DNA from: a virus | IMG/VR virus record: IMGVR_UViG_3300046003_006532 | Location: 1 to 30,853 of that record | Strand: one strand, 5' to 3' | Length of the DNA stretch: 30,853 nt | Shown: one piece after another, positions 4,011-19,262 of the stretch | How the letters are laid out: each line of letters opens with the position of its first letter | How positions within the stretch are numbered: the first letter of the stretch is position 1 | Program-made: the position numbers and the translations under genes | Notes under the pieces: generated by a model | The model's database searches: none | Seen by the model: the letters and a program-made list of their open reading frames with translations, nothing else | What the model was told of the DNA's origin: nothing

Positions 4011-5066
4011 TTATTGCGCCGCGGCGACGATATCGCCAACGACTACACCGAGGTCGTCGATGCGCTTGAAGTCTTCTTTTTCGCGCATGTAAACCAACTG
4101 CGTATCACGCAGCAACCCTTGAGTAGAGGTCGAGGTCTTGAACCCGCTGTACATGACCCGTTTGATAGCCTGGGGAACCCATGCCACATAGGAGTCTTCC
4201 GCGCCTTCACCGGTGATGGAGGCCATCATAGATTTCGGCAGGACAATGAAGGTTACACCGTCGATGTCCGGGATCGTTCCCTGCATGAAATGCTCATAAC
4301 TCCGCACGAAGTCGGTGTTATGAATCTGGCTGCGGCTGTTCTTGCGGAAATGCCGCGCCATCGTTGCGGAAATTGCGCAATAGATCGGGCTGCCCTTGGC
4401 ATACCAGACATTGTCAAACTTTTCGCAGATCATGCTCGGCAGACTGTCGACATTAATATCCGCATACGTCATGTCATCCAGAGTTTGAGACGCCGGCAGA
4501 GAAACCGAGTGCAAAGTTTCATTGTCGCTGGATTTGCGGCTGACGGTTGCGGCCGTAGCACCGGCAAGGAACAGCTCATCGCGTTCTTTGAAGATTTTAC
4601 GGATACCGACGTTAACCGTTGAACCCTTCGGATCGGCCAGATGCTGCCATTCTTCGTCTTCGTCAAACGAGTGCCCCCACTCAACCAGACGCGGAGCGGA
4701 CCAGCTGACCATCTTCATTACATCGTTAAACGGAGTAATGGTCTTTTTGAAGTTGTCCCAGGTTTGGCTTTCAGCGGCCAGCTGCTGGTATTCCTTCACC
4801 GTGTCTTTAGCCGTCAGGGCTTTGCTGACCGCATCGTCGCTGTCCGCAGCACTGATCCCGTTAATCCAGACGCCTTTGCCGGAGCCCGCTTCTTCTTCGC
4901 ACATGTGCGCGAGAATAGAGTGGGACGGATGTTCTCCCAGCAGGTCTTTTACGTTGGCCGTAAACTGCTCGAACATGTGAGTATCCTGCGACGCAAAACG
5001 CACCGCCGGAGCAAGCAACCAGCTCAGCAATGCCAAGACTGGATTTCCAATAAACATGATTTTCAT
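4011..5066 (-). CDS. Major capsid protein
   Basis: 351 aa. The call rests on position (portal, two small head proteins, scaffold, this gene, adaptor, nozzle) and on sequence: acidic N-terminal helical region, beta-rich core, and a C-terminal end 'EKEDFKRIDDLGVVVGDI' typical of HK97-fold capsid proteins in podophages with Bbp-type head modules. The start at 5066 is supported by AAGGAG spaced six bases from the ATG. With this start the protein begins with a hydrophobic segment (about residues 3-22, including PVLALLSWLLAPAV) that looks like a signal peptide or membrane anchor, which is unusual for a capsid protein. An internal Met at residue 31 would remove it but has no comparable ribosome site. 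The gene has its own 140-base leader after a terminator, in keeping with high and separately controlled expression. Confidence 0.82.
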   Translation of the reverse strand: MKIMFIGNPVLALLSWLLAPAVRFASQDTHMFEQFTANVKDLLGEHPSHSILAHMCEEEAGSGKGVWINGISAADSDDAVSKALTAKDTVKEYQQLAAESQTWDNFKKTITPFNDVMKMVSWSAPRLVEWGHSFDEDEEWQHLADPKGSTVNVGIRKIFKERDELFLAGATAATVSRKSSDNETLHSVSLPASQTLDDMTYADINVDSLPSMICEKFDNVWYAKGSPIYCAISATMARHFRKNSRSQIHNTDFVRSYEHFMQGTIPDIDGVTFIVLPKSMMASITGEGAEDSYVAWVPQAIKRVMYSGFKTSTSTQGLLRDTQLVYMREKEDFKRIDDLGVVVGDIVAAAQ

Positions 5067-5265: not shown

Positions 5266-6231
5266 TTATTTTTTCCGCAGCGCATCGCGTTTTTTATACA
5301 ATTCCGATTCCTGCTTGATCAGCTTCTTCCGCTCCAGTGAGTTTTCGGTGCCCTTGATCTTTGTCCGCAGCTCGGTGATCTGCGTTTCAATAGCGTCCGC
5401 CGACTCCTTGCCACTTCCGCCCGGATGATCTTCACTGATGCTCCGCGCCACTTCGTCCATCATGACGCGGAAGTCCTTCCGCGCATCGATCCCGACCGAC
5501 TTCATCACGGAAAAAAGTTCCGGATATTTTTCGCCAATGCGGTCAATCCCCGCCTGGCGATCCGCAAACTCGGCCCCCCATTCGGTTTTTAACTCGGCAT
5601 CCGTGGATGCTCGCTGGGTTGCAATCACCGCCTGCGCATCAGCCATATCCTGCGAAACCTGATCCGCATAGATATCCATCACCGCCTGCGCATGCTTGTT
5701 GCTTAATCCGGCCTTATGAAACGCGCTGGTGATTGCCTTTTGCCGCGGCTCCGGAAGTCCGGAGTCCTTGAACATCGGGATTTCATATTTATCGGCGCTT
5801 TCCGGTGCCACCGGCAGATCGGGAAAATGCTTCATCACTTCGGCCTGAAACGCTGCTTTCTGTTCCGGTGTGGCATCTTTAGGTGGCAAAGGAATCCCCT
5901 TTGACGCGGCAAGCTGCCGGGCACTTTGCGCCCCCTTCACATAGTCACCAATGGTTTTATACTCCTTGTCCTTGTCGGTCAGGATAGCCGGATCAACCCC
6001 GGCCGACTCAAACCACGGCTTATCACCGCCGCCGGCTGGAGTCTTTGTCCGTCCACCATCGGGAGGAATTTCAATACTGCGAGATCCACCGTCACCATAT
6101 CCTCCGCCGTCACCGCCGCCGGAGCCCCCGTCCCCGTCAGCGCCGTCACCGCCGCCGCCGTCACCGCCGCTGTCAATATACCGGACCATCGGAAGCAACG
6201 GGAAAAACAGCCAAAGAATTAATTTCAACAT
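5266..6231 (-). CDS. Capsid scaffolding protein
   Basis: 321 aa, immediately upstream of the capsid gene. Residues 18-50 are a low-complexity Gly/Asp/Ser stretch. The remainder is acidic and strongly helical, with a 'W-F-x-x-A-G-V-D-P' segment near residue 75 and a Lys/Glu-rich coiled-coil tail ending KKRDALRKK. Such a helical, charged protein before the capsid gene is the usual scaffold layout. The start ATG at 6231 is three bases after the preceding stop, with AAAGG overlapping that gene's end. The first 16 residues (MLKLILWLFFPLLPMV) are intensely hydrophobic and signal- or anchor-like, which is unexpected for a scaffold. The alternative Met at residue 15 has no ribosome site. The coding DNA for the Gly/Asp stretch is a near-repeat of GCC, CCG and TCACC units (6085-6178). 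Confidence 0.75.
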   Translation of the reverse strand: MLKLILWLFFPLLPMVRYIDSGGDGGGGDGADGDGGSGGGDGGGYGDGGSRSIEIPPDGGRTKTPAGGGDKPWFESAGVDPAILTDKDKEYKTIGDYVKGAQSARQLAASKGIPLPPKDATPEQKAAFQAEVMKHFPDLPVAPESADKYEIPMFKDSGLPEPRQKAITSAFHKAGLSNKHAQAVMDIYADQVSQDMADAQAVIATQRASTDAELKTEWGAEFADRQAGIDRIGEKYPELFSVMKSVGIDARKDFRVMMDEVARSISEDHPGGSGKESADAIETQITELRTKIKGTENSLERKKLIKQESELYKKRDALRKK

Positions 6232-6630: not shown

Positions 6631-6886
6631 TTGTATCCTCCTTGCCCTCTACGGGCTTCCAGTTGATTTGTTCGATAACCCACACCATGAAATCATTCCG
6701 GGCAACATTCGCATCCTGCACCCGCTGATCCGTCGCAAACAGCGGCCCGTTCATCCCGGACTTGGAAACCATATCTTCAAGAACCTGCTTTCCATCCGAC
6801 GTGCCGAACACCTTCCTAAACCGCGCCGCCCGCTTGCGCCGCTCCCCATCGGCCACTGCCCGCCGCGTTTTGCTTGGTTTAACCAT
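6623..6886 (-). CDS. Bbp19-like phage protein
   Basis: 87 aa. The segment RFRKVFGTSDGKQVLEDMV (residues about 22-40), followed by a helix with A.RNDF..WV, matches the Bbp19-like family first seen in Bordetella phage BPP-1 (F..vF.t..G..VL.dL....Gr). The family is normally found next to portal genes; its function is unknown. The start overlaps the portal stop as TAATG, with AAGGGG about ten bases upstream. Confidence 0.75.
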   Translation of the reverse strand: MVKPSKTRRAVADGERRKRAARFRKVFGTSDGKQVLEDMVSKSGMNGPLFATDQRVQDANVARNDFMVWVIEQINWKPVEGKEDTSE

Positions 6887-8550
6887 TATATTGCCACCCC
6901 TTGAGCGCTTTCCATCGCCGCCACGCCGGCTTCAAGCGGACTGCCCTCTTCCGGTGCCCGCTGCGCATCAATCGGATGCACCATGCTTCCAAGCTGCCGT
7001 TGCTGAGCCGCCGACGCCTGCGCGTCCATATATTTTTTGATGTTGTCTTTGAACTGCTGCTCAGTAAACAACAGCTCCACATCCACGTTTTTTGCCGCAA
7101 AAATCTTTTTGATTGTTTCGTAGGTCTTAACAACAGCATCCAGCCAGGGATTCTGTTTAATGGCCGCGATCAACTCCGCCGCCTGCATAACCGCCTGCGC
7201 CAGACTGGAGATCTCCAGATCGGCCAACTGCACATCCAGACGGCTGGTGTACTGCACGGAGAACTCACTGCCACCCAGAGCTGCCGGAATTTCTTCACCA
7301 AGCAGGTCATATTCAAGAATGTCTTCCGCAACCAGTTCGTACAGCGGCGAAAAGAACCCATTCCCAAGCCGATTAATTACCGGGCTGATCGCCTGTATCC
7401 GTTCCGCGATCAGTTGAGAAACCTCAAACGCCGTCTTGGCGCTGTTTTTAATCTGCTCCAGCATCGTGAACAGATCCACGTAATGCAGCTTATTCACCTC
7501 ATCCGTCAGCCAAGTGATGAAATCCGCACTCAGTTGCAGATTGCCGTTGCCGGTGTACGTGAAAATCTGCCCCTTGCTGGTGTCGCAGTAGTTCACCCCG
7601 AACGCTTCCAGCACCGCAGACTCTACCGCGTCCCTATCCGGCAGAAAAATTGGCGGAGCAATCCCCAGCTCAACCCCGTCCATGTGATCCGAAACAACCT
7701 TCATCAGCGTACGGGCCACCGGCAGAGCCTTCATGGCCGGAGACCGCCCGAACGGCTCCCCGTCGCGCACGTAAAAGCGTGGCACCAGATACCGCATCCG
7801 CTTTGTCCCGGACTCTTTCACCTTCGACCGGGTTGATTCTTCAACGTGGATGCTTTCATACGGCATGTTTTTGCTGTCCAGCCTCTTGCTGTTGCGTACT
7901 TTGCGCCGCCGTAAAACATGCACAAACTTGAATTTTTCTTCGTGCTTTTCGTTTTTGTAGGCCGTCTGAATCACCTGAGGAACTTCCTCCAGCCCGAACT
8001 CATCAACCGCCTCAACCGCCGTCAGTTCATATTCCCGATAAACCTCAATCAGCTCCGCGCGCGCATTACGCACCGGAAAAACCTTCGTGCTGGGATACAC
8101 CAGAAACTCGTGCTGTGAAGTTTTCTCGTTAAAATCGACATAAAACACCCCTTCACCACGCACACCAAAGCCGGACAACATTTCGTTGTATGCTTCAGGA
8201 AATGGGCTTTGCTGAATCCTTCGGTGCGTCGCCTTGCTGAGCGCCGTATAAAACCGCGCCACCTCGGACTGCTTCATTTTCTTCTGGTCTTGATCGATGA
8301 TGTTCCCGCGGCCCATGCTCATGGTGTTGGAAAACAGCCCGGACACCATCCGCTCCTGCGCCAGAATGCCCGTTGAAATGATCGGCTGAAGAACCTCCGA
8401 GCCTGCAGGCGCTTCAAGCAGATCCTCCAGTTCGGGATTAAACAGCCGGCAAGCCTCATCACACACGTTTTTATACGTTGCCCGCTGGCCTTTCAGCGTA
8501 TCGCGCGTCCGGAGAATTTTCTCTGCAATCGTTTTTGCCATATTATTCAT
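6886..8550 (-). CDS. Portal (head-tail connector) protein, T7 gp8-like
   Basis: 554 aa, the usual size for a podophage connector. It begins with a helical region containing 'RTDTLKGQR..YKNVCDEACRLFNP'-type sequence (here RDTLKGQRATYKNVCDEACR), then 'TGILAQERMVSGLFSNTMS', a GFGVRGEGVFYVDF strand near residue 125, and the conserved 'YGRSPAMKALP'-type stretch (here FGRSPAMKALPVAR, about residue 270). It ends with a clip and crown region rich in Gln/Ala. This is the pattern of the podovirus head-tail connector family: a dodecameric ring at one capsid vertex through which DNA is packaged. Its position downstream of terminase genes and upstream of scaffold supports it. No strong ribosome site is seen; a heptamer repeat tract lies just upstream. 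Confidence 0.92.
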   Translation of the reverse strand: MNNMAKTIAEKILRTRDTLKGQRATYKNVCDEACRLFNPELEDLLEAPAGSEVLQPIISTGILAQERMVSGLFSNTMSMGRGNIIDQDQKKMKQSEVARFYTALSKATHRRIQQSPFPEAYNEMLSGFGVRGEGVFYVDFNEKTSQHEFLVYPSTKVFPVRNARAELIEVYREYELTAVEAVDEFGLEEVPQVIQTAYKNEKHEEKFKFVHVLRRRKVRNSKRLDSKNMPYESIHVEESTRSKVKESGTKRMRYLVPRFYVRDGEPFGRSPAMKALPVARTLMKVVSDHMDGVELGIAPPIFLPDRDAVESAVLEAFGVNYCDTSKGQIFTYTGNGNLQLSADFITWLTDEVNKLHYVDLFTMLEQIKNSAKTAFEVSQLIAERIQAISPVINRLGNGFFSPLYELVAEDILEYDLLGEEIPAALGGSEFSVQYTSRLDVQLADLEISSLAQAVMQAAELIAAIKQNPWLDAVVKTYETIKKIFAAKNVDVELLFTEQQFKDNIKKYMDAQASAAQQRQLGSMVHPIDAQRAPEEGSPLEAGVAAMESAQGVAI

Positions 8551-8791: not shown

Positions 8792-9275
8792 AAATATACC
8801 CTTTGTTGGTTTTCAGGCTATATACGCACCCGCCAACCCGAACCACCTCAACAAACCCCATCGATCGCGCCATTTTCTCGGCAACCTGATTGTTTCCCTC
8901 GCAGCAAACCTCCAGCAAATCCACCTCCTTGCTGTTCAAAATCATGTCTAGAGCTAGCTTGGACGAAGAAAACACAGTCTTTGGACGGTAATGAGCATGC
9001 GCCGCAAAATGAACCTGCACGCTCTTCCCGCATTCTCGCCAGTTCGTCAGGTAAATCACCGCCGGATATCGCCCATCGACCTCAATCACCACCGGACAAA
9101 ACGCGATCGCGCGCGGAGCTTTGGGTTTCGGGTTTAAATAACTCATCCAGCCCGGAAGCGTCCTCAACCATTCAGGCAGATGTTTGATCGTACCGGCCTC
9201 AACCTGCTCCATAAACGCCTGCCGTAGCTCGTTCGCCGTCGGCTTCAAATGAATAAACACGCTTGAATTGTGCAT
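8760..9275 (-). CDS. GNAT-fold-like phage protein
   Basis: 171 aa. The second half reads like the C-terminal part of the GNAT acetyltransferase fold: a helix after 'KTVFSSSKLALDMIL', a strand 'VDLLEVCCE', then 'NNQVAEKMARSMGFVEVVRVGG', the characteristic helix plus (L/M)GF turn followed by a final strand. Proteins of this type sit beside terminase or portal genes in many podophages, and their substrate is not known. The usual acetyl-CoA loop (Q/RxxGxG/A) is not obvious, so it may be non-catalytic. The start overlaps the TerL stop as TAATG, with GAGGAG upstream. The final codons overlap both the next gene and a candidate late promoter. Confidence 0.62.
   Translation of the reverse strand: MHNSSVFIHLKPTANELRQAFMEQVEAGTIKHLPEWLRTLPGWMSYLNPKPKAPRAIAFCPVVIEVDGRYPAVIYLTNWRECGKSVQVHFAAHAHYRPKTVFSSSKLALDMILNSKEVDLLEVCCEGNNQVAEKMARSMGFVEVVRVGGCVYSLKTNKGYIYGKTKTRKIC
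8818..8831 (-). promoter_or_regulatory. Candidate late promoter, copy 2 (before the portal-side genes)
   Basis: The minus strand reads GGGTGCGTATATAG, 14 nt identical to copy 1. It lies inside the last codons of the GNAT-like gene (encoding GCVYS) and 27 bases before the small gene that precedes the portal. Conservation of the full 14-mer in a coding context that copy 1 does not share argues for selection on the DNA motif itself. Confidence 0.55.
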
Positions 9276-10654
9276 TAGTATCTCCTCAATTTTTTAACCA
9301 CCCGACTGCTCACCCGCCGCCCTGCATTCAACGCCCTCGGCTTCACGTTCCGCCGCGCCCAATACCTCAACCCGTCAATCAGATGGTTGAACTTATCCTC
9401 CGGCTCATCGGAAAACTTACCGTCCGGCTGCTTCTTCCAGGCATAGTTCTCAAACTCAGCCTGAAAATTATTGCTGTCGCGGTGGACGTAGATCGTGAAT
9501 TGCTTCAGCAGACTGATCCCGTACTGGATGCTTCCAGCGCCCTTTTCGCACGCCTCGACGCGGAATCCGCTGGTTTCCAAGTCGGCCAGCTGCTCAGCCG
9601 CCGCCGCATCACCGATCATCAGCAGACCCGGAATAAACAGCCCGCACTCGATAGCCTCTCTCAACCGCAGTTCCAGCGACGGCTTATCCGGATTGCTCTG
9701 ATTCACCGTGGTGATCAGCCCCGTCTCATACACCACTTCGCGCACATACAGCCGATCATTCAGCAGGAACGCCCGGCCCACGGCCGTAGGATCCTGAGAG
9801 AAACCGAAGTCCACGAAATGTCCGTCCCGCTGCGCCGCGTAGAGTTCCTTCGGCCACTGTTCATCCTCCAGCACCAGCCAGTTGTCAAAGATTGCCCCTT
9901 CGCGCCGGGCACGCTTCCCAAGCCCGTAAACTTCCCAGCTCCACTTATCCGCCGTGCCAGCTAGTATATTTTCAGGCGTTGGCCGCCAGCTCATGATATC
10001 TGCACGCGCCTCCGGACTGATGAAAGGATTGTCCCGGAACGTCGAATGGAAATAATCCACCCGATCCCCGCCCTGCTTCAGCACGCGCTCAAACACCCAA
10101 TGCACCGAAATGCTGGGATTAAAGTCCATGATAATAAAATCGTTGGTTCGGGCATTAATCTGCCGGAACGCTTCGTAGGATATTTCCGTAACCTCGTTCA
10201 GCCACGCAATATCACGGCGCGGACCGTGCAGCTTGCCCGGCTTCTGACACCCGCGGAACCGCAGCATAGACCCGTTTTTAAACCGGTACTCCTTGCGCTG
10301 CTCATTCCAGCACTTATCATCCCACAGCCCAAACTGATCCGGCCCCATCACAAACCGGAAATCCTCAATCACCGAATCGTTACACGTCGCTTGATCGTGC
10401 CGGAAACAGTCCACCTTCACCTTGCGCTGAAGCAACTGATACGAAATCAAATATTGCAAAATTGAAATCGTTTTGGATGAACCAGACGAACCCTCCAGCA
10501 CCGCATACCGCTTGCGCGTTGCCCGGTAATCAGAGCCTGATAAATTCCATCCACCGCGACGCTCCGCCGCCGACTTATTCAACCAGCTCGAATAGGCCGG
10601 AAACGTGCTATCCACCAGCCGCTGATAGTTCAGGGTTGCCGATATCTCACGCAT
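9275..10654 (-). CDS. terL: Terminase large subunit (DNA-packaging ATPase/nuclease)
   Basis: 459 aa from the ATG at 10654, preferred over a GTG at 10669 because GGAGG lies six bases before it. It has a Walker A loop (EGSSGSSKT, residues 54-62), a Walker B strand ending in Glu (DIAWLNE, 148-154) and a RNase H-like nuclease domain with acidic residues D282 (DFGFSQDP), D349 (MIGDAA) and D427 (NHLIDGLRYW). The SSGSSKT loop and the DP...NHLIDALRY-type ending suit the PBSX/SPP1-like (Terminase_3) group. The protein docks on the portal and pumps DNA into the prohead using ATP, then cuts it. The start overlaps the TerS end by eight bases. Confidence 0.95.
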   Translation of the reverse strand: MREISATLNYQRLVDSTFPAYSSWLNKSAAERRGGWNLSGSDYRATRKRYAVLEGSSGSSKTISILQYLISYQLLQRKVKVDCFRHDQATCNDSVIEDFRFVMGPDQFGLWDDKCWNEQRKEYRFKNGSMLRFRGCQKPGKLHGPRRDIAWLNEVTEISYEAFRQINARTNDFIIMDFNPSISVHWVFERVLKQGGDRVDYFHSTFRDNPFISPEARADIMSWRPTPENILAGTADKWSWEVYGLGKRARREGAIFDNWLVLEDEQWPKELYAAQRDGHFVDFGFSQDPTAVGRAFLLNDRLYVREVVYETGLITTVNQSNPDKPSLELRLREAIECGLFIPGLLMIGDAAAAEQLADLETSGFRVEACEKGAGSIQYGISLLKQFTIYVHRDSNNFQAEFENYAWKKQPDGKFSDEPEDKFNHLIDGLRYWARRNVKPRALNAGRRVSSRVVKKLRRY

Positions 10655-11207
10655 CCGGCACCTCCGCACGTCTCACCACCATCATAAACCGGCCATCACC
10701 AGAACCCTCTTCGTCTTCGCCTGTCGCCATTTTTAACCGGTCAAGCGCCTCTTCAACACCGGCCAGCTGCTCCCCAATCCGGAACTTGCCCAGATACCAC
10801 TTGAGCCCGTCCATCTCCAGTTTGAAGCGTACCGCCTCCATCTCACGAAACTCCAGCGCCGGAGTTGTCCGAATCTTGCGAATCAGCTCAACAAAATCAT
10901 CTTCCAGCAGAGCCACCCGCACCCGGCACGCCAGCACAAACCCCTCCGCAAACTGACGCAAATCCGAATCAATACCCAGTGCACCCTTACGAACCCAACC
11001 CGACACCGTTTTGCGAGTAGGCAACCCGTCCTTTTCACAGGCATGAGTCAGACTATCGCCCCCCGCAATCGCATCCAAAACCAGCTCCGCAACCGGCCAC
11101 GAAAACCCGTCCGGCCTTCCCGCTTTCTGCAATTCTTTCTTCGGGTTCTTTCGCGCTACAGCGCGACCATTCACCGCTTTGTTCGTCTGCTTTTTCTGTT
11201 TTTTCAT
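10647..11207 (-). CDS. terS: Terminase small subunit
   Basis: 186 aa, directly upstream of and overlapping terL. After a Lys-rich N-terminus comes a helix-turn-helix (residues about 45-75: VLDAIAGGDSLTHACEKDGL, then TRKTVSGWVRKG). A long helical oligomerisation region follows, with KWYLGKF near residue 137, a signature of Sf6 gp1-like and related small terminases. The acidic tail (ATGEDEEGSGDG) may contact TerL. It recognises the packaging site on concatemeric DNA. No strong ribosome site is visible (GACGG before the ATG), so expression may depend on upstream translation or a long leader. Confidence 0.87.
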   Translation of the reverse strand: MKKQKKQTNKAVNGRAVARKNPKKELQKAGRPDGFSWPVAELVLDAIAGGDSLTHACEKDGLPTRKTVSGWVRKGALGIDSDLRQFAEGFVLACRVRVALLEDDFVELIRKIRTTPALEFREMEAVRFKLEMDGLKWYLGKFRIGEQLAGVEEALDRLKMATGEDEEGSGDGRFMMVVRRAEVPDA

Positions 11208-11245
11208 CCGTCAGATTTGTCCGGTTTGTCAGTTGCGGTATAAGG

Positions 11246-11287
11246 ACGCGCGCGCGTGCGCACACAATTCCGCGCACGCATGCGCGT
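11246..11287. other. Alternating purine-pyrimidine GC tract with inverted repeat
   Basis: Most of this 42-bp stretch alternates CG, TG and CA dinucleotides. It contains an 8-bp inverted repeat (GCGTGCGC at 11254-11261, GCGCACGC at 11272-11279) around an AT-containing loop. It lies in the 93-base gap between the GroES-like gene and TerS. No U-tract follows, so it is not an ordinary terminator. A cos/pac-type packaging signal, an mRNA hairpin or Z-DNA-forming DNA are all possible. Confidence 0.5.
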
Positions 11288-11300
11288 AGCGGGGTAATAA

Positions 11301-11567
11301 TTAGAACTTTCCGAGAATATCCTTCTCCTCGAAAAAGCTGTACAGCTTCACCCCGTCGCCGTTGTCAAACTTCAACGGCTTACCATCACTTGACCGACAC
11401 ACAACACAATCCCCCACCTTCACCGCCTTGACCTCCGGACCGACAGCCCGGACAACAATGTCACACGGAGCGCTCTCCTTGGCCGCTTCCGGAATAATCA
11501 GCTTAATCGCCTGCTCCTTCGGAACCGGCTCAACCATCACCGCCTTGCCATACAATTTGACACCCAT
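11301..11567 (-). CDS. GroES-like co-chaperonin
   Basis: 88 aa, close to the ~95 of GroES. It shows the Cpn10 layout: an N-terminal strand with a VMVEPVPKE segment in place of GroES 'DRVIVKRxE', a mobile-loop region followed by IIPEAAKE (GroES: GGIVLP..AKE), a 'IVVRAVGPEV..VKVGDCVV' strand pair (GroES: V.AVG.G....VKVGD.V.F), and a C-terminal DILGKF matching '.DILAI'. It would cap a GroEL chamber for folding phage proteins, as T4 gp31 does for the T4 capsid. The mobile loop lacks the usual Gly-Gly-Ile-Val motif and has AIKLI instead, so the GroEL contact may differ. AAGGG lies upstream of the ATG. No GroEL gene is in the window. Confidence 0.82.
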   Translation of the reverse strand: MGVKLYGKAVMVEPVPKEQAIKLIIPEAAKESAPCDIVVRAVGPEVKAVKVGDCVVCRSSDGKPLKFDNGDGVKLYSFFEEKDILGKF

Positions 11568-11570
11568 AAC

Positions 11571-11801
11571 CTACCCTTTCTCTTCCTGTTCTATTTTTTC
11601 CATCACCTGCCGGACGCTCTTGCCATGCTTCCGCGCTAAATAGCGCAGATCGCTTTGAAACACCAAAAACCGCGCCAGCTTCAACCGCTCCCTCAGAGGC
11701 TGCATCTGCATCCTCAAAAACACATTCAGCGCCAAATCATTCGCCTGCTTCACCCGGCGCTCACGCCGAAATATCTTCCGCTTCCCATTGTCCTTGCTCA
11801 T
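11571..11801 (-). CDS. Small basic hypothetical protein
   Basis: 76 aa, rich in Arg and Lys (KRKIFRRERRVKQ near the start) and predicted helical throughout; residues 50-72 (DLRYLARKHGKSVRQVMEKIEQ) could be a helix-turn-helix. It is coupled to the methyltransferase gene by an ATGA overlap. Family not recognised. A nucleic-acid-binding role is plausible from charge alone. Confidence 0.6.
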   Translation of the reverse strand: MSKDNGKRKIFRRERRVKQANDLALNVFLRMQMQPLRERLKLARFLVFQSDLRYLARKHGKSVRQVMEKIEQEEKG

Positions 11802-14189: not shown

Positions 14190-14894
14190 TCAGTCCGCTT
14201 CGTCCGTCCGCAACCGCTCCAAATTCCTCTTCTCCCGAACCTCGATCCCCGCCGCTTTCAGGCAATCCACCAGCCTCATCACCTTTTCAAACGTCGGCTC
14301 AGGCAAACCATGCCCCTTGGAATCCGCACCGATATTAATAAAGTCCGGCTTCGCCTCGATCAGCAGCCTGGCGAACTTCTCCAGATCAAAATCCATGATC
14401 GGCTCGATGGTCACAAATCGCTTAGATGTAAATCTTGGATCAAAACCGGCCAGCGCAGTAAGCCGACAACGGCGCCGCGGAGCGCCGCCCAAATCGTTCT
14501 CCCTGTTTGTCTCAACCGTCACCCCAATCAGGCAACGCGGAGGAAAAATCCAGACACCCTTTTCAATCCGCCGTGGATTCTTCGTCTGGAAAATATATTC
14601 ATTCTGCGGCCATGCGTCGCAGTGCGTCAAAATCCGATCAATCCACTCCAGCGGCACCGCGTCCGCAAACAGATCGTTGCAGTTCTCTTCGAAGATCGTC
14701 TTGCCTTCCCCGTACTGCACGGCGAACTCCTTTTCCCGCAGACACAGCGGCCCGCTGTACGGCAATTCCGGAAAACGCTTCTGCATATCCTGAATGGAGC
14801 AATACACGCACTTGTGCGGACACTCCCCGCCCAGGTGGTTGTGAGTGTGTGTAATCCAGTCGTACATATTCCCCTTCGTCTTATTCAGCGGCAT
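14190..14894 (-). CDS. Radical-SAM-like protein with CxxxCxxC cluster (phage DUF5131/Gp37-Gp68-like)
   Basis: 234 aa from the ATG at 14894 (GGAGG six bases upstream; TGATG overlap with the preceding gene). The N-terminus PLNKTKGNMYDWITHTHN and the cluster CPHKCVYC (about residues 25-32) match a phage-borne family related to radical SAM and spore photoproduct lyase-like proteins. Further features are YIFQTKNPRRI, IGVTVETNRE and KRFVTIEPIMDFD, the usual TKN, ETN and EP motifs. The CxxxCxxC cysteines should hold a 4Fe-4S cluster that cleaves S-adenosylmethionine. The substrate is unknown; nucleic acid or a nucleotide is a guess from the context of HD-domain and ASCH genes. Confidence 0.8.
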   Translation of the reverse strand: MPLNKTKGNMYDWITHTHNHLGGECPHKCVYCSIQDMQKRFPELPYSGPLCLREKEFAVQYGEGKTIFEENCNDLFADAVPLEWIDRILTHCDAWPQNEYIFQTKNPRRIEKGVWIFPPRCLIGVTVETNRENDLGGAPRRRCRLTALAGFDPRFTSKRFVTIEPIMDFDLEKFARLLIEAKPDFINIGADSKGHGLPEPTFEKVMRLVDCLKAAGIEVREKRNLERLRTDEAD

Positions 14895-15343
14895 CACATC
14901 CCTCCCGTCAGCAGCTTCTGAAAATTGTTCGCCTTGGCCTGCTGGAAAAACGTCTGCTTGGTTGCCGGATCGTAGAGGTACGGCATAAACACCTCCATCA
15001 CCTCAACCTGCGCCAGCTCGATCATGGCCATCTGCGCTTCAACCCAATCGGAGAGGATTTTCCATGCTGTTCGCTCCGCCTGTTTCGGAATCATCTTCTT
15101 TGTCTCCGGACGTGCCCGCCGACTGAGTGTAGACATCAACACCCGTTCACAGTTCGCAATCTGCGCCGGAAGTTTAAAATGTATTTCCTGCCCGTTCATC
15201 GGAATGGAAAAACAAATTCCGTCACAGCGGCCGGCCTCGTCATACTCCTTGAGAATCTGCCGCGCGCCGTTCTTCGTCAGACATTGCTCGATAAACGAAA
15301 CCGACGTGCTCACCGGCACCTGGCTTGTGTAATTTTTCAGCAT
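14894..15343 (-). CDS. Conserved phage protein of unknown function
   Basis: 149 aa from the ATG at 15343, chosen because GGAGGGG precedes it; the upstream extension is Arg/Gly-rich and looks non-coding. It starts MLKNYTSQVPVSTSVSFIE and continues with a 'GARQILKEYDEAG..DGICFSI' strand-helix region and a helical C-terminal half (AWKILSDWVEAQMAMIE..QVEVMEVFMPYLYD). I recall this type of protein from many temperate phages, in early operons and without known function. The stop overlaps the radical-SAM-like start. Confidence 0.72.
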   Translation of the reverse strand: MLKNYTSQVPVSTSVSFIEQCLTKNGARQILKEYDEAGRCDGICFSIPMNGQEIHFKLPAQIANCERVLMSTLSRRARPETKKMIPKQAERTAWKILSDWVEAQMAMIELAQVEVMEVFMPYLYDPATKQTFFQQAKANNFQKLLTGGM

Positions 15344-17682: not shown

Positions 17683-17958
17683 TTAAGGTCTGCCCCACTG
17701 CCAAAACACCCGCGTCTTGCCACCTTCCCAATTCACCATCCAGCAGCCCCTCCAGATGCGAAGCCATCCGGTACGGGCGCGACGCATCGCGCCAGCAGGT
17801 AGCACGGCGCGGAGCGGCCCCGCCAAGGAGACCAAGCCGAAAACGGGACTCGCCTGCCCGCGCCGTGCAATTTTTAAAAATCCAGTCCGATCAATCGCCA
17901 ATCGGCAATCACCAATCCTAAATGCCCGCAACCTCTGAATGTCTAAGAAGTGCATCAT
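17683..17958 (-). CDS. Doubtful small ORF coupled to the PcfJ-like gene
   Basis: 91 codons. The ATG at 17958 overlaps the PcfJ-like stop as ATGATG, with AAGGTGG upstream, the same coupling style as true genes here. Against it, the ORF runs straight through a heptamer repeat tract, an 11-bp inverted repeat and palindromic unit B, and the protein (Arg, Trp and Gly heavy in its second half) resembles no family. It may be a decayed gene, or an intergenic region filled by repeats. The region between 17670 and 17954 holds nothing else I can support. Confidence 0.22.
   Translation of the reverse strand: MMHFLDIQRLRAFRIGDCRLAIDRTGFLKIARRGQASPVFGLVSLAGPLRAVLPAGAMRRARTGWLRIWRGCWMVNWEGGKTRVFWQWGRP
17776..17868. 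repeat. Cluster of palindromic repeats after the PcfJ-like gene
   Basis: Unit B, GGCGCGA CGCA TCGCGCC (17776-17793), is preceded by GGTACG like unit A. Next to it an 11-bp perfect inverted repeat, GCACGGCGCGG (17802-17812) and CCGCGCCGTGC (17858-17868), encloses 45 bases with smaller dyads. Together they look like REP- or MITE-type palindromic DNA. Confidence 0.65.
17892..17919. repeat. Heptamer repeat tract (CAATCNN family), copy 1
   Basis: CAATCGC CAATCGG CAATCAC CAATCCT: four 7-bp units on the plus strand, 36 bases past the stop of the PcfJ-like gene. Related tract at 20874-20908. Confidence 0.75.
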
Positions 17959-19262
17959 GCCGCCACCTTGAGTTGAACTTTTGCCTTGGAAAAAACCCTC
18001 TCGACGAACTTCCGCACCTCTTTCGGTGGGGTGCTGTTGTTTTTGCCGTAGCACTGAGTAACCACGCCCGTCTTCGGATCGTAAGCAGCCGCCACATACG
18101 CCGTATTGGGCCGCCGCGCCTGACTCACAAAAACCACAACGCACTCACCGCGCGCCACTTTGGCTGCATACTGTCCAAGACAATTGACCAGCGCCTTGCC
18201 TTCGACAATGAACGCATCTTCTGTGCGCGGACACACCACCCGATAATCCCCGCTCTTGCGCTCAACCCAGCTCCATTTGTCGGCAATCGCCGCCAGCTGG
18301 CGGTTCATCGCCGCGATCTTCTCCGCATTCTCTGCCCGGCGGATAGCGTCAACCTGATCCTGCACCGCCTGCTGCCGTGCTTTAAATTGACGCGGAAACG
18401 AAACCTTCGTATCCGACAGATCAAGCCCCAGCTTTTCGCAGTTTTTGAGATAACCAACGTAATCGGTGCGGCAGATTCTGGCCTTGCTAATATAACCAGC
18501 GGCCTTTAATGCTGGAACCGAGCGCGGAAGGCCATAGCCGCGAAACGACCGGATCACCTCAATATCTTTCCATGCGGTACCCAGCGACACTCCGTTTTTA
18601 TATGCCAGGAAAATGGCGTCCACACCCGAATGGCGAATGTCTTCCGCATTCTTCATAAAGAACTGCCGGAAATTCCTGTCAGATTTCAGCCTCCGGACAA
18701 TGGAAATCTTTGTGCAGAACTTGCCCAGCCCGCATTTTGAAAGCAGTTCGATCTCCGGATGCTCTTTGTAGACCTTCAGATAATCCAGCAGGTGCCCCCG
18801 CGCCGGTTCCCACGCCGACCATTTGAACCGGCGCGTCCGATTGAGAATCTCAGGATTAACAACCGGAGCATTGATCTTCCACATGCAGCGCAGCGCATAG
18901 GCGCATGGTTCCCATCTGCGACTGTACCCAAATTCATTGTACGACAGAAATCCTTCAGGAGACCAGTCAACCGTATATCCTGAGATCGGTCTATGTCCCA
19001 AGTCATGCACATGAATCCACGGATCATCTACACTGGCCCGCGACACTTCCTTCACCAGCGGCTTTTCCGTCCGCTTGGCCGCCTTCACCGCCACCGTCCG
19101 GATCTGCACATCGCTACCGCATTGCGTCAGGTAGTGGTAAAACCGGTTGCGGTTCGTCTCTGTACCGCCGGGCCCAAAACCGGACGCACGATCAAACGCA
19201 AGGATGCTTCGCATCGCCGCCGCCGACAGCGGCTTATATTCTGGCGAATCAAACCGCTTCAC
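17955..19262 (-). CDS. PcfJ-like protein
   Basis: 435 aa from a GTG that overlaps the stop of the PcfK-like gene (GTGA), with GGAGCG upstream. The C-terminal ~85 residues carry the PcfJ-like signature: ALVNCLGQYAAKVARGECVV, then a strand pair with AYVAAAYDPKTGVVTQCYG and KNNSTPPKEVRKFVERVF (family pattern: HCV..Y...v..G...i...R......y.t.e......i.Q..g..N........f...w). PcfJ is named from the enterococcal plasmid pCF10. Its relatives are common in phages and mobile elements, but the biochemical role is not established. The N-terminal 300 residues are helical with conserved-looking Trp and Arg residues. Its pairing with PcfK is the normal arrangement. Confidence 0.8.
   Translation of the reverse strand: MKRFDSPEYKPLSAAAMRSILAFDRASGFGPGGTETNRNRFYHYLTQCGSDVQIRTVAVKAAKRTEKPLVKEVSRASVDDPWIHVHDLGHRPISGYTVDWSPEGFLSYNEFGYSRRWEPCAYALRCMWKINAPVVNPEILNRTRRFKWSAWEPARGHLLDYLKVYKEHPEIELLSKCGLGKFCTKISIVRRLKSDRNFRQFFMKNAEDIRHSGVDAIFLAYKNGVSLGTAWKDIEVIRSFRGYGLPRSVPALKAAGYISKARICRTDYVGYLKNCEKLGLDLSDTKVSFPRQFKARQQAVQDQVDAIRRAENAEKIAAMNRQLAAIADKWSWVERKSGDYRVVCPRTEDAFIVEGKALVNCLGQYAAKVARGECVVVFVSQARRPNTAYVAAAYDPKTGVVTQCYGKNNSTPPKEVRKFVERVFSKAKVQLKVAA

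Follow-up and report, generated by a model that had tools for sequence, protein, structure and literature searches.

In phage T4, the coat protein gp23, with its ~56 kDa, makes the co-chaperonin gp31 necessary, and gp31, which is devoid of the roof loops of the dome, is able to replace GroES, as stated in a passage of PMC6318259. Co-chaperonins have been recorded in other phages as well. A section of PMC9599517 places GroES, together with terminase, among the 13 core genes of the HTVC023P-type pelagiphages (Podoviridae). A passage of the paper on siphovirus B8b refers to the earlier detection of GroES in podoviruses as well as myoviruses, and proposes greater complexity of the capsid or tail to explain its presence (PMC4294664), and a figure legend names GroES for roseophage CRP-901-type genomes (PMC10149686). 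In our searches, relatives of T4 gp31 matched 1,355 of the 50,697 phage records, many of them close kin of T4, and E. coli GroES matched 89 phage records, including a few that are plainly contigs of bacteria. Thus, the first-pass annotation of the locus described here overstates the case in saying that few phages have a co-chaperonin of their own. A literature search on viral chaperonin, GroES and virome jointly returned no paper.

The DNA analysed here (the window) is an entire virus record of 30,853 bases, classed as linear, which often denotes a fragment. Its genes encode a PF12236 head–tail connector, tail proteins, a major capsid protein, and a protein resembling integrases (E 1.4e-19 to PHROG 1; 26.2 bits on the Pfam integrase family, slightly below the cut-off of 27.1), and this gene content gives the virus the appearance of a podovirus-type phage bearing a temperate signature. 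An ORF check of the whole window placed an 88-codon ORF with an ATG start exactly at 11301-11567 on the minus strand. This gene, cpn10, encodes a GroES-family co-chaperonin of 88 aa and 9.5 kDa. Its ATG is preceded by AGAAAGGG and is located 3 bases past the stop codon of a basic 76-aa ORF of no assigned function (11571..11801, minus strand), which matched no Pfam family over the cut-off and nothing in PHROGs; a homologue of this ORF follows the gene for the terminase large subunit (TerL) in the related virus record L012. On the other side, 93 bases separate cpn10 from the gene of an Sf6-type terminase small subunit (TerS; 10647..11207; PF20901 42.3 bits, phrog_1482), followed by that of TerL (9275..10669; PF04466 71.2 bits, PF17288 30.4 bits), so that the placement of a co-chaperonin beside the packaging genes, as initially annotated, was borne out. 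Farther along the minus strand, there are genes for the 62.3-kDa head–tail connector, or portal (6886..8550; PF12236 215.5 bits), for a protein assigned to the scaffold role by its position only, just before the coat gene (5266..6231), and for the 39.1-kDa major capsid protein (4011..5066; PF19821 31.7 bits, phrog_3437). The scaffold-position protein belongs to no Pfam family; its best PHROG is 3742, of unknown function, and its matches to protease PHROGs are weak (E 2.8e-5 and 6.4e-5). The minus strand of this podovirus-type genome also encodes a DUF5131 protein (14190-14897; 38.4 bits, with a radical SAM match below the cut-off) and a PcfJ-like protein (17955-19262; 87.7 bits), of a family named from conjugative plasmids.

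The assignment of the cpn10 product to its family is supported by several profile comparisons. On the Pfam Cpn10 family (PF00166), it scored 33.3 bits (E 5e-8; cut-off 21.1), as compared with 30.8 bits for T4 gp31 used as a yardstick, and its residues 7-88 aligned with positions 6-93 of the 93 in the profile, i.e., with the whole domain. It also matched PHROG 3188, 'co-chaperonin GroES' (E 1.2e-6). In hhalign, its profile matched a 13-member GroES profile at 95.8% (E 7.3e-9), whereas the match to a profile of four gp31 proteins was weaker (32.7%, E 4.6e-4, 52 columns), and the control profile of the coat protein gave 0.3%; a kinship specifically to gp31 thus appears weak. Sequence searches against solved chains gave no significant match: with the single sequence no Cpn10 was found, the top hit being a dehydrogenase at E 0.22, and with a four-sequence profile Cpn10 came first, but at E 0.032. 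Similarly, tblastn of the protein against the 50,697 phage records returned nothing at E 0.01. The possibility of a stand-alone alcohol-dehydrogenase 'GroES-like' domain was considered and rejected, as the ADH_N score (14.3 bits) stayed below the cut-off of 23.5, and the best oxidoreductase-domain match to the structural model in VIA reached a Z of only 6.4.

Orthologues of the protein are encoded in four further virus records, at 93% or 81% identity, and at 52% identity in a fifth, L016, whose Cpn10 had 7 matches among phage records, none better than E 0.7. Comparison with L001 (dN/dS 0.030/0.193) and with L004 (0.138/0.930) gave a ratio of ~0.15 in both cases, and cpn10 is under purifying selection. 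Clearly, the GroES-like co-chaperonin proposed for 11301-11567 corresponds to a real gene, on the evidence of its Pfam and PHROG matches, its orthologues, and its dN/dS.

The predicted structure is of the same kind. AlphaFold run on an alignment of 23 phage Cpn10 sequences, with the window protein included, returned a model with a mean pLDDT of 72.9, in which the blocks from residue 41 onward reached 79-88, while the four nearest sequences alone gave a model of low confidence (pLDDT 35.6). The 23-sequence model is predicted to adopt the Cpn10 beta-barrel fold. A Foldseek search with it yielded a best GroES match at E 3.4e-4 and gp31 at E 2.3e-3, and in VIA it aligned over 83 residues with T. 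thermophilus Cpn10 (4v4o_O; Z 10.9, rmsd 2.4), and scored a Z of 9.1 with GroEL-bound gp31 (2cgt) and 8.9 with 1g31. The first-pass annotation was to be abandoned if prediction failed to produce a Cpn10 fold, and the fold was found; as the input alignment was itself made up of Cpn10s, this result confirms the family, without being independent of the assignment by sequence.

The part of the protein in which the annotation had seen an anomaly is the mobile loop. In the model, pLDDT falls below 50 at residues 18-26 and 28-34, where the mobile loop of GroES sits, and by this low confidence and by column match we place the predicted loop at residues 18-34 (EQAIKLIIPEAAKESAP; 11466..11516, minus strand), with LII as its hydrophobic anchor. 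The loop reads AIKLIIPEAAKES, with IKLIIPEA in place of GGIVL. Thus, the statement that GGIVL is missing is literally true (IKLII), but it does not follow that the loop is broken. The Gly-Gly ahead of the triplet is replaced by Ile-Lys, and LII itself occupies the hydrophobic-triplet column of the 23-sequence alignment (III, IVL, IIL), the position of IVL or III, and matches the SGIIIP of other phage Cpn10s. Moreover, the oddity is milder than claimed, since the loop of T4 gp31 (SGLII) also lacks GGIVL, yet gp31 works with GroEL, and its LII triplet is identical to that of the window protein. In L016, the Cpn10 encoded at the same locus has the loop GGLVL, which indicates that the loop has changed within this phage group, in either direction. 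The mobile loop looks adapted rather than lost, and the protein, by prediction only, has a flexible loop with a hydrophobic GroEL-binding triplet, though not with the strict GGIVL.

The second feature by which the protein resembles gp31 is its roof. Only 8 residues lie between the conserved glycines G43 and G52 (11415..11438, minus strand), as compared with 17 in E. coli GroES (G44-G62) and 10 in gp31 (G55-G66); the lengths in E. coli GroES and gp31 were counted from the conserved glycines, and that in the window protein was taken from the 23-sequence alignment. The roof hairpin is absent, as in gp31. An 8-residue roof also occurs in Bacteroides phage SJC03 and in the virus records L054, L055, L060 and L064, so that the short roof is common to several phage co-chaperonins and is not special to the window protein. 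As the phage Cpn10s were sampled from pattern matches (34 of 220), and such a sample favours the motif of the query itself, we give no frequency for the roof-less forms.

Apart from these likenesses (a similar score on the family profile, the LII anchor and the short roof), T4 gp31 and the window protein differ in several respects. Gp31 is longer (111 vs. 88 aa), and the mobile loop of the window protein is shorter. The gp31 gene adjoins rIII and 31.1, whereas the window cpn10 adjoins the TerS gene in a podovirus-type phage with an integrase. The HTVC023P-type pelagiphages also have a co-chaperonin in podovirus genomes, according to the section of PMC9599517 cited above, but they are marine SAR11 phages, and the likeness noted here is one of gene presence. 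In Shewanella phage 1/44 and Vibrio phage 1.049.O, which are phages of 45-50 kb, a Cpn10 gene lies, as here, within the virion gene block; however, it is located shortly before the gene of the major tail protein, and its product has a GGIVL loop. Bacteroides phage SJC03 shares with the window the 8-residue roof (GPKVEEVKVGD), but differs in its SGIII loop and in the phage Cpn60 gene that follows (PF00118 245.7 bits). In SJC03 (L050:2501-4400), the roof-less Cpn10 and the Cpn60 are thus encoded side by side, and both are annotated as 'hypothetical'. The closest comparison is with L016, which has the same locus, the short roof, the same TerS type and the hairpin core described below, but in which, besides having the GGLVL loop, Cpn10 is extended at both its N- and C-termini and scores only 22.7 bits on Pfam Cpn10.

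Taken together, the sequence comparisons suggest that the window protein is a genuine, probably working gp31-like co-chaperonin that uses host GroEL. We consider it likely that it acts as T4 gp31 does, as a lid on host GroEL, in the folding of one or more late proteins of the phage. In support of that are its family, its predicted fold, a disordered loop in the right place, the short roof, purifying selection, and the position of the gene at the packaging genes; against it count the replaced Gly-Gly of the loop, the weak kinship to gp31 in particular, the lack of a significant sequence match to solved chains, and some relatives that seem to manage without cpn10. The protein would be made together with the head and packaging proteins and would form a heptameric lid, the flexible loop of which would bind host GroEL by docking of the LII triplet. 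With the roof hairpin missing, the cage would be closed with a slightly open top, and one or more phage late proteins would fold inside it. We infer the heptamer, the binding to GroEL, and late expression, as well as the use of the host's GroEL, given that no Cpn60 was seen in the window and nine related, possibly incomplete records, while control genomes were matched in 14 of 14 cases each time (the search covered 4 plus 6 records, the window included, with G007, G008, G010 and G011 lying outside it). Scans of genome contigs for a host with the Cpn10 alignment and with the TerL alignment found no relative. Judged from position only, the substrate is likely to be a head or packaging protein.

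A tie to packaging in particular is suggested by the distribution of cpn10 in the group. Cpn10 was found in 5 of the 13 related records G001-G013 (5/11, 0/1 and 0/1 by search set), and the TerS type phrog_1482 was found in the same five, which makes 6/6 with the window. L024, which begins inside TerL, and L015, of which only 340 bases lie ahead of the TerL match, were left out of this comparison, as were L017 and L018, whose TerL is only 30% identical. In L012, L013, L014 and L045, the stretch before TerL is covered by the record, and no Cpn10 was found there or elsewhere in these records, which are linear and possibly incomplete, so that a Cpn10 could lie outside them. The portals of these four are 75%, 68%, 65% and 45% identical to that of the window in L012, L014, L013 and L045, respectively, and the best PHROG of their TerS is 4102 (L012), 51 (L013 and L014) or 309 (L045). 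TerS proteins of four best PHROGs (1482, 4102, 51 and 309) thus precede a related TerL in the window and in these relatives, whose TerL is 45-79% identical to that of the window, pointing to repeated TerS exchange.

Between cpn10 and the TerS gene, just after the cpn10 stop codon, there is a conserved GC-rich hairpin (11246..11287, minus strand; element 11234-11302). In the comparison of the window with L016, the element is better conserved (53/65 ungapped columns) than either of the flanking genes (155/243 for cpn10 DNA and 415/555 for TerS DNA). The hairpin folds with -31 kcal/mol, which is only mildly better than composition shuffles: the z-score was -1.9 in the window (9 of 200 shuffles were as good), -1.9 in L001, -2.5 in L004, and only -0.9 in L016. 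The hairpin core CCGCTACGCGC follows cpn10 in 6/6 records; it was present in 26 of 87 loci, each of which belongs to the window or to one of the five Cpn10-bearing records of the group, and was absent from every locus of the relatives without Cpn10. The hairpin is followed by no T run, and an Rfam search of the window gave nothing at gathering scores. The element is a candidate packaging site, terminator or regulatory element that moves with the phrog_1482 TerS, and, together with the 6/6 linkage to this TerS, it suggests that Cpn10, site and TerS form a cassette.

If so, Cpn10 could serve packaging, by helping this TerS, or TerL, to fold, or could merely travel with TerS and the site. The association in all six records of Cpn10 both with the phrog_1482-type TerS and with the hairpin core speaks for this, as do the four records in which TerL and portal are related to those of the window, but which have a TerS of three other best PHROGs and no Cpn10. 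However, linkage alone is no proof of a functional bond, the six records represent only about three distinct lineages, and TerS, at only 20.7 kDa, is no obvious chaperonin client; we regard this explanation as unlikely. Its narrower form, in which the roof-less lid would be specialised for the folding or assembly of one TerS type and exchanged together with that TerS and the adjacent DNA site, is improbable; if true, it would mean a phage chaperone matched to the packaging motor and not to the capsid.

The alternative put forward in the first-pass annotation concerned the capsid: the co-chaperonin was taken to reflect special folding needs of the capsid protein, possibly related to its hydrophobic N-terminus. 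In this explanation, Cpn10 would be a working co-chaperonin with the major capsid protein as its main substrate, needed for the N-terminal leader of that protein. The coat protein does have a hydrophobic leader of ~24 residues, its gene has a strong Shine–Dalgarno sequence, and the scaffold-position protein starts with a hydrophobic stretch, too. Moreover, a coat leader is present in all five Cpn10-bearing records with a readable coat start (window, L025, L026, L027 and L028); the sixth, L003, stops short of the coat gene, ending inside the scaffold gene, with the scaffold leader present. Leaders on both proteins occur in these five and in L015 and L024. In agreement with such a link, L013 and L045 have neither a coat leader nor a Cpn10 in the record, L045 lacking the scaffold leader as well.

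Other observations argue against it. The coat protein, at 39.1 kDa, is not oversized and lies well below gp23, so that the size argument that holds for gp23 fails here. Where the record of a relative is long enough to include a related coat (79% identical to that of the window in L012, 65% in L013 and 59% in L045), it has no Cpn10, though it may be incomplete. In particular, the 14.4-kb record L012 encodes a coat with a leader, has no scaffold leader, and has a different TerS in the slot and no Cpn10, and the 34.8-kb record L013 has a leader on the scaffold-position protein and no Cpn10. Thus, there are records in which either the coat or the scaffold-position protein has a leader although no Cpn10 is seen. 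The compared lineages are few and related, which makes the correlation weak in either direction, and the records may be incomplete, so that the comparison of leaders argues against the capsid link without excluding it. Coat and scaffold leaders do not appear to follow Cpn10, and the proposed connection of special folding needs with the hydrophobic N-terminus is unsupported. We hold the leader-dependent role of Cpn10 to be quite unlikely, and a strict need for it by the coat protein is unlikely as well. Across the window and L012, L013, L015, L016, L027 and L045, the coat and scaffold leaders are alike, many of them having RFA, RY or a comparable sequence at their end, and were gained or lost independently. 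Possibly, they serve membrane contact, or are removed later in head assembly. A search for capsid proteins with signal peptides, in the part of the literature available to it, returned a mycobacteriophage review only, which does not imply that they are absent from print.

Finally, a loss of co-chaperonin activity in favour of another role, such as the capping of a ClpP-like ring or the poisoning of host GroEL, could be read from the replaced Gly-Gly of the loop and from the chains of 7ekq (titled CrClpP-S2c) among the Foldseek matches, which presumably is a ClpP complex from Chlamydomonas that includes Cpn10-like chains and as such suggests that Cpn10 lids may act beyond GroEL, but this is very unlikely, as the hydrophobic triplet is kept in a form identical to that of gp31, and the low confidence of the loop and the purifying selection fit an active lid.

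A gp31-like lid on host GroEL is a kind of protein already known from phages, and the general view of phage co-chaperonins is unchanged by its presence here. What the window adds to them is a compact, roof-less Cpn10 of a small podovirus-type group. As relatives in this group keep the head module, yet show no cpn10, they offer a useful comparison for finding out which phage protein needs a phage-made lid.
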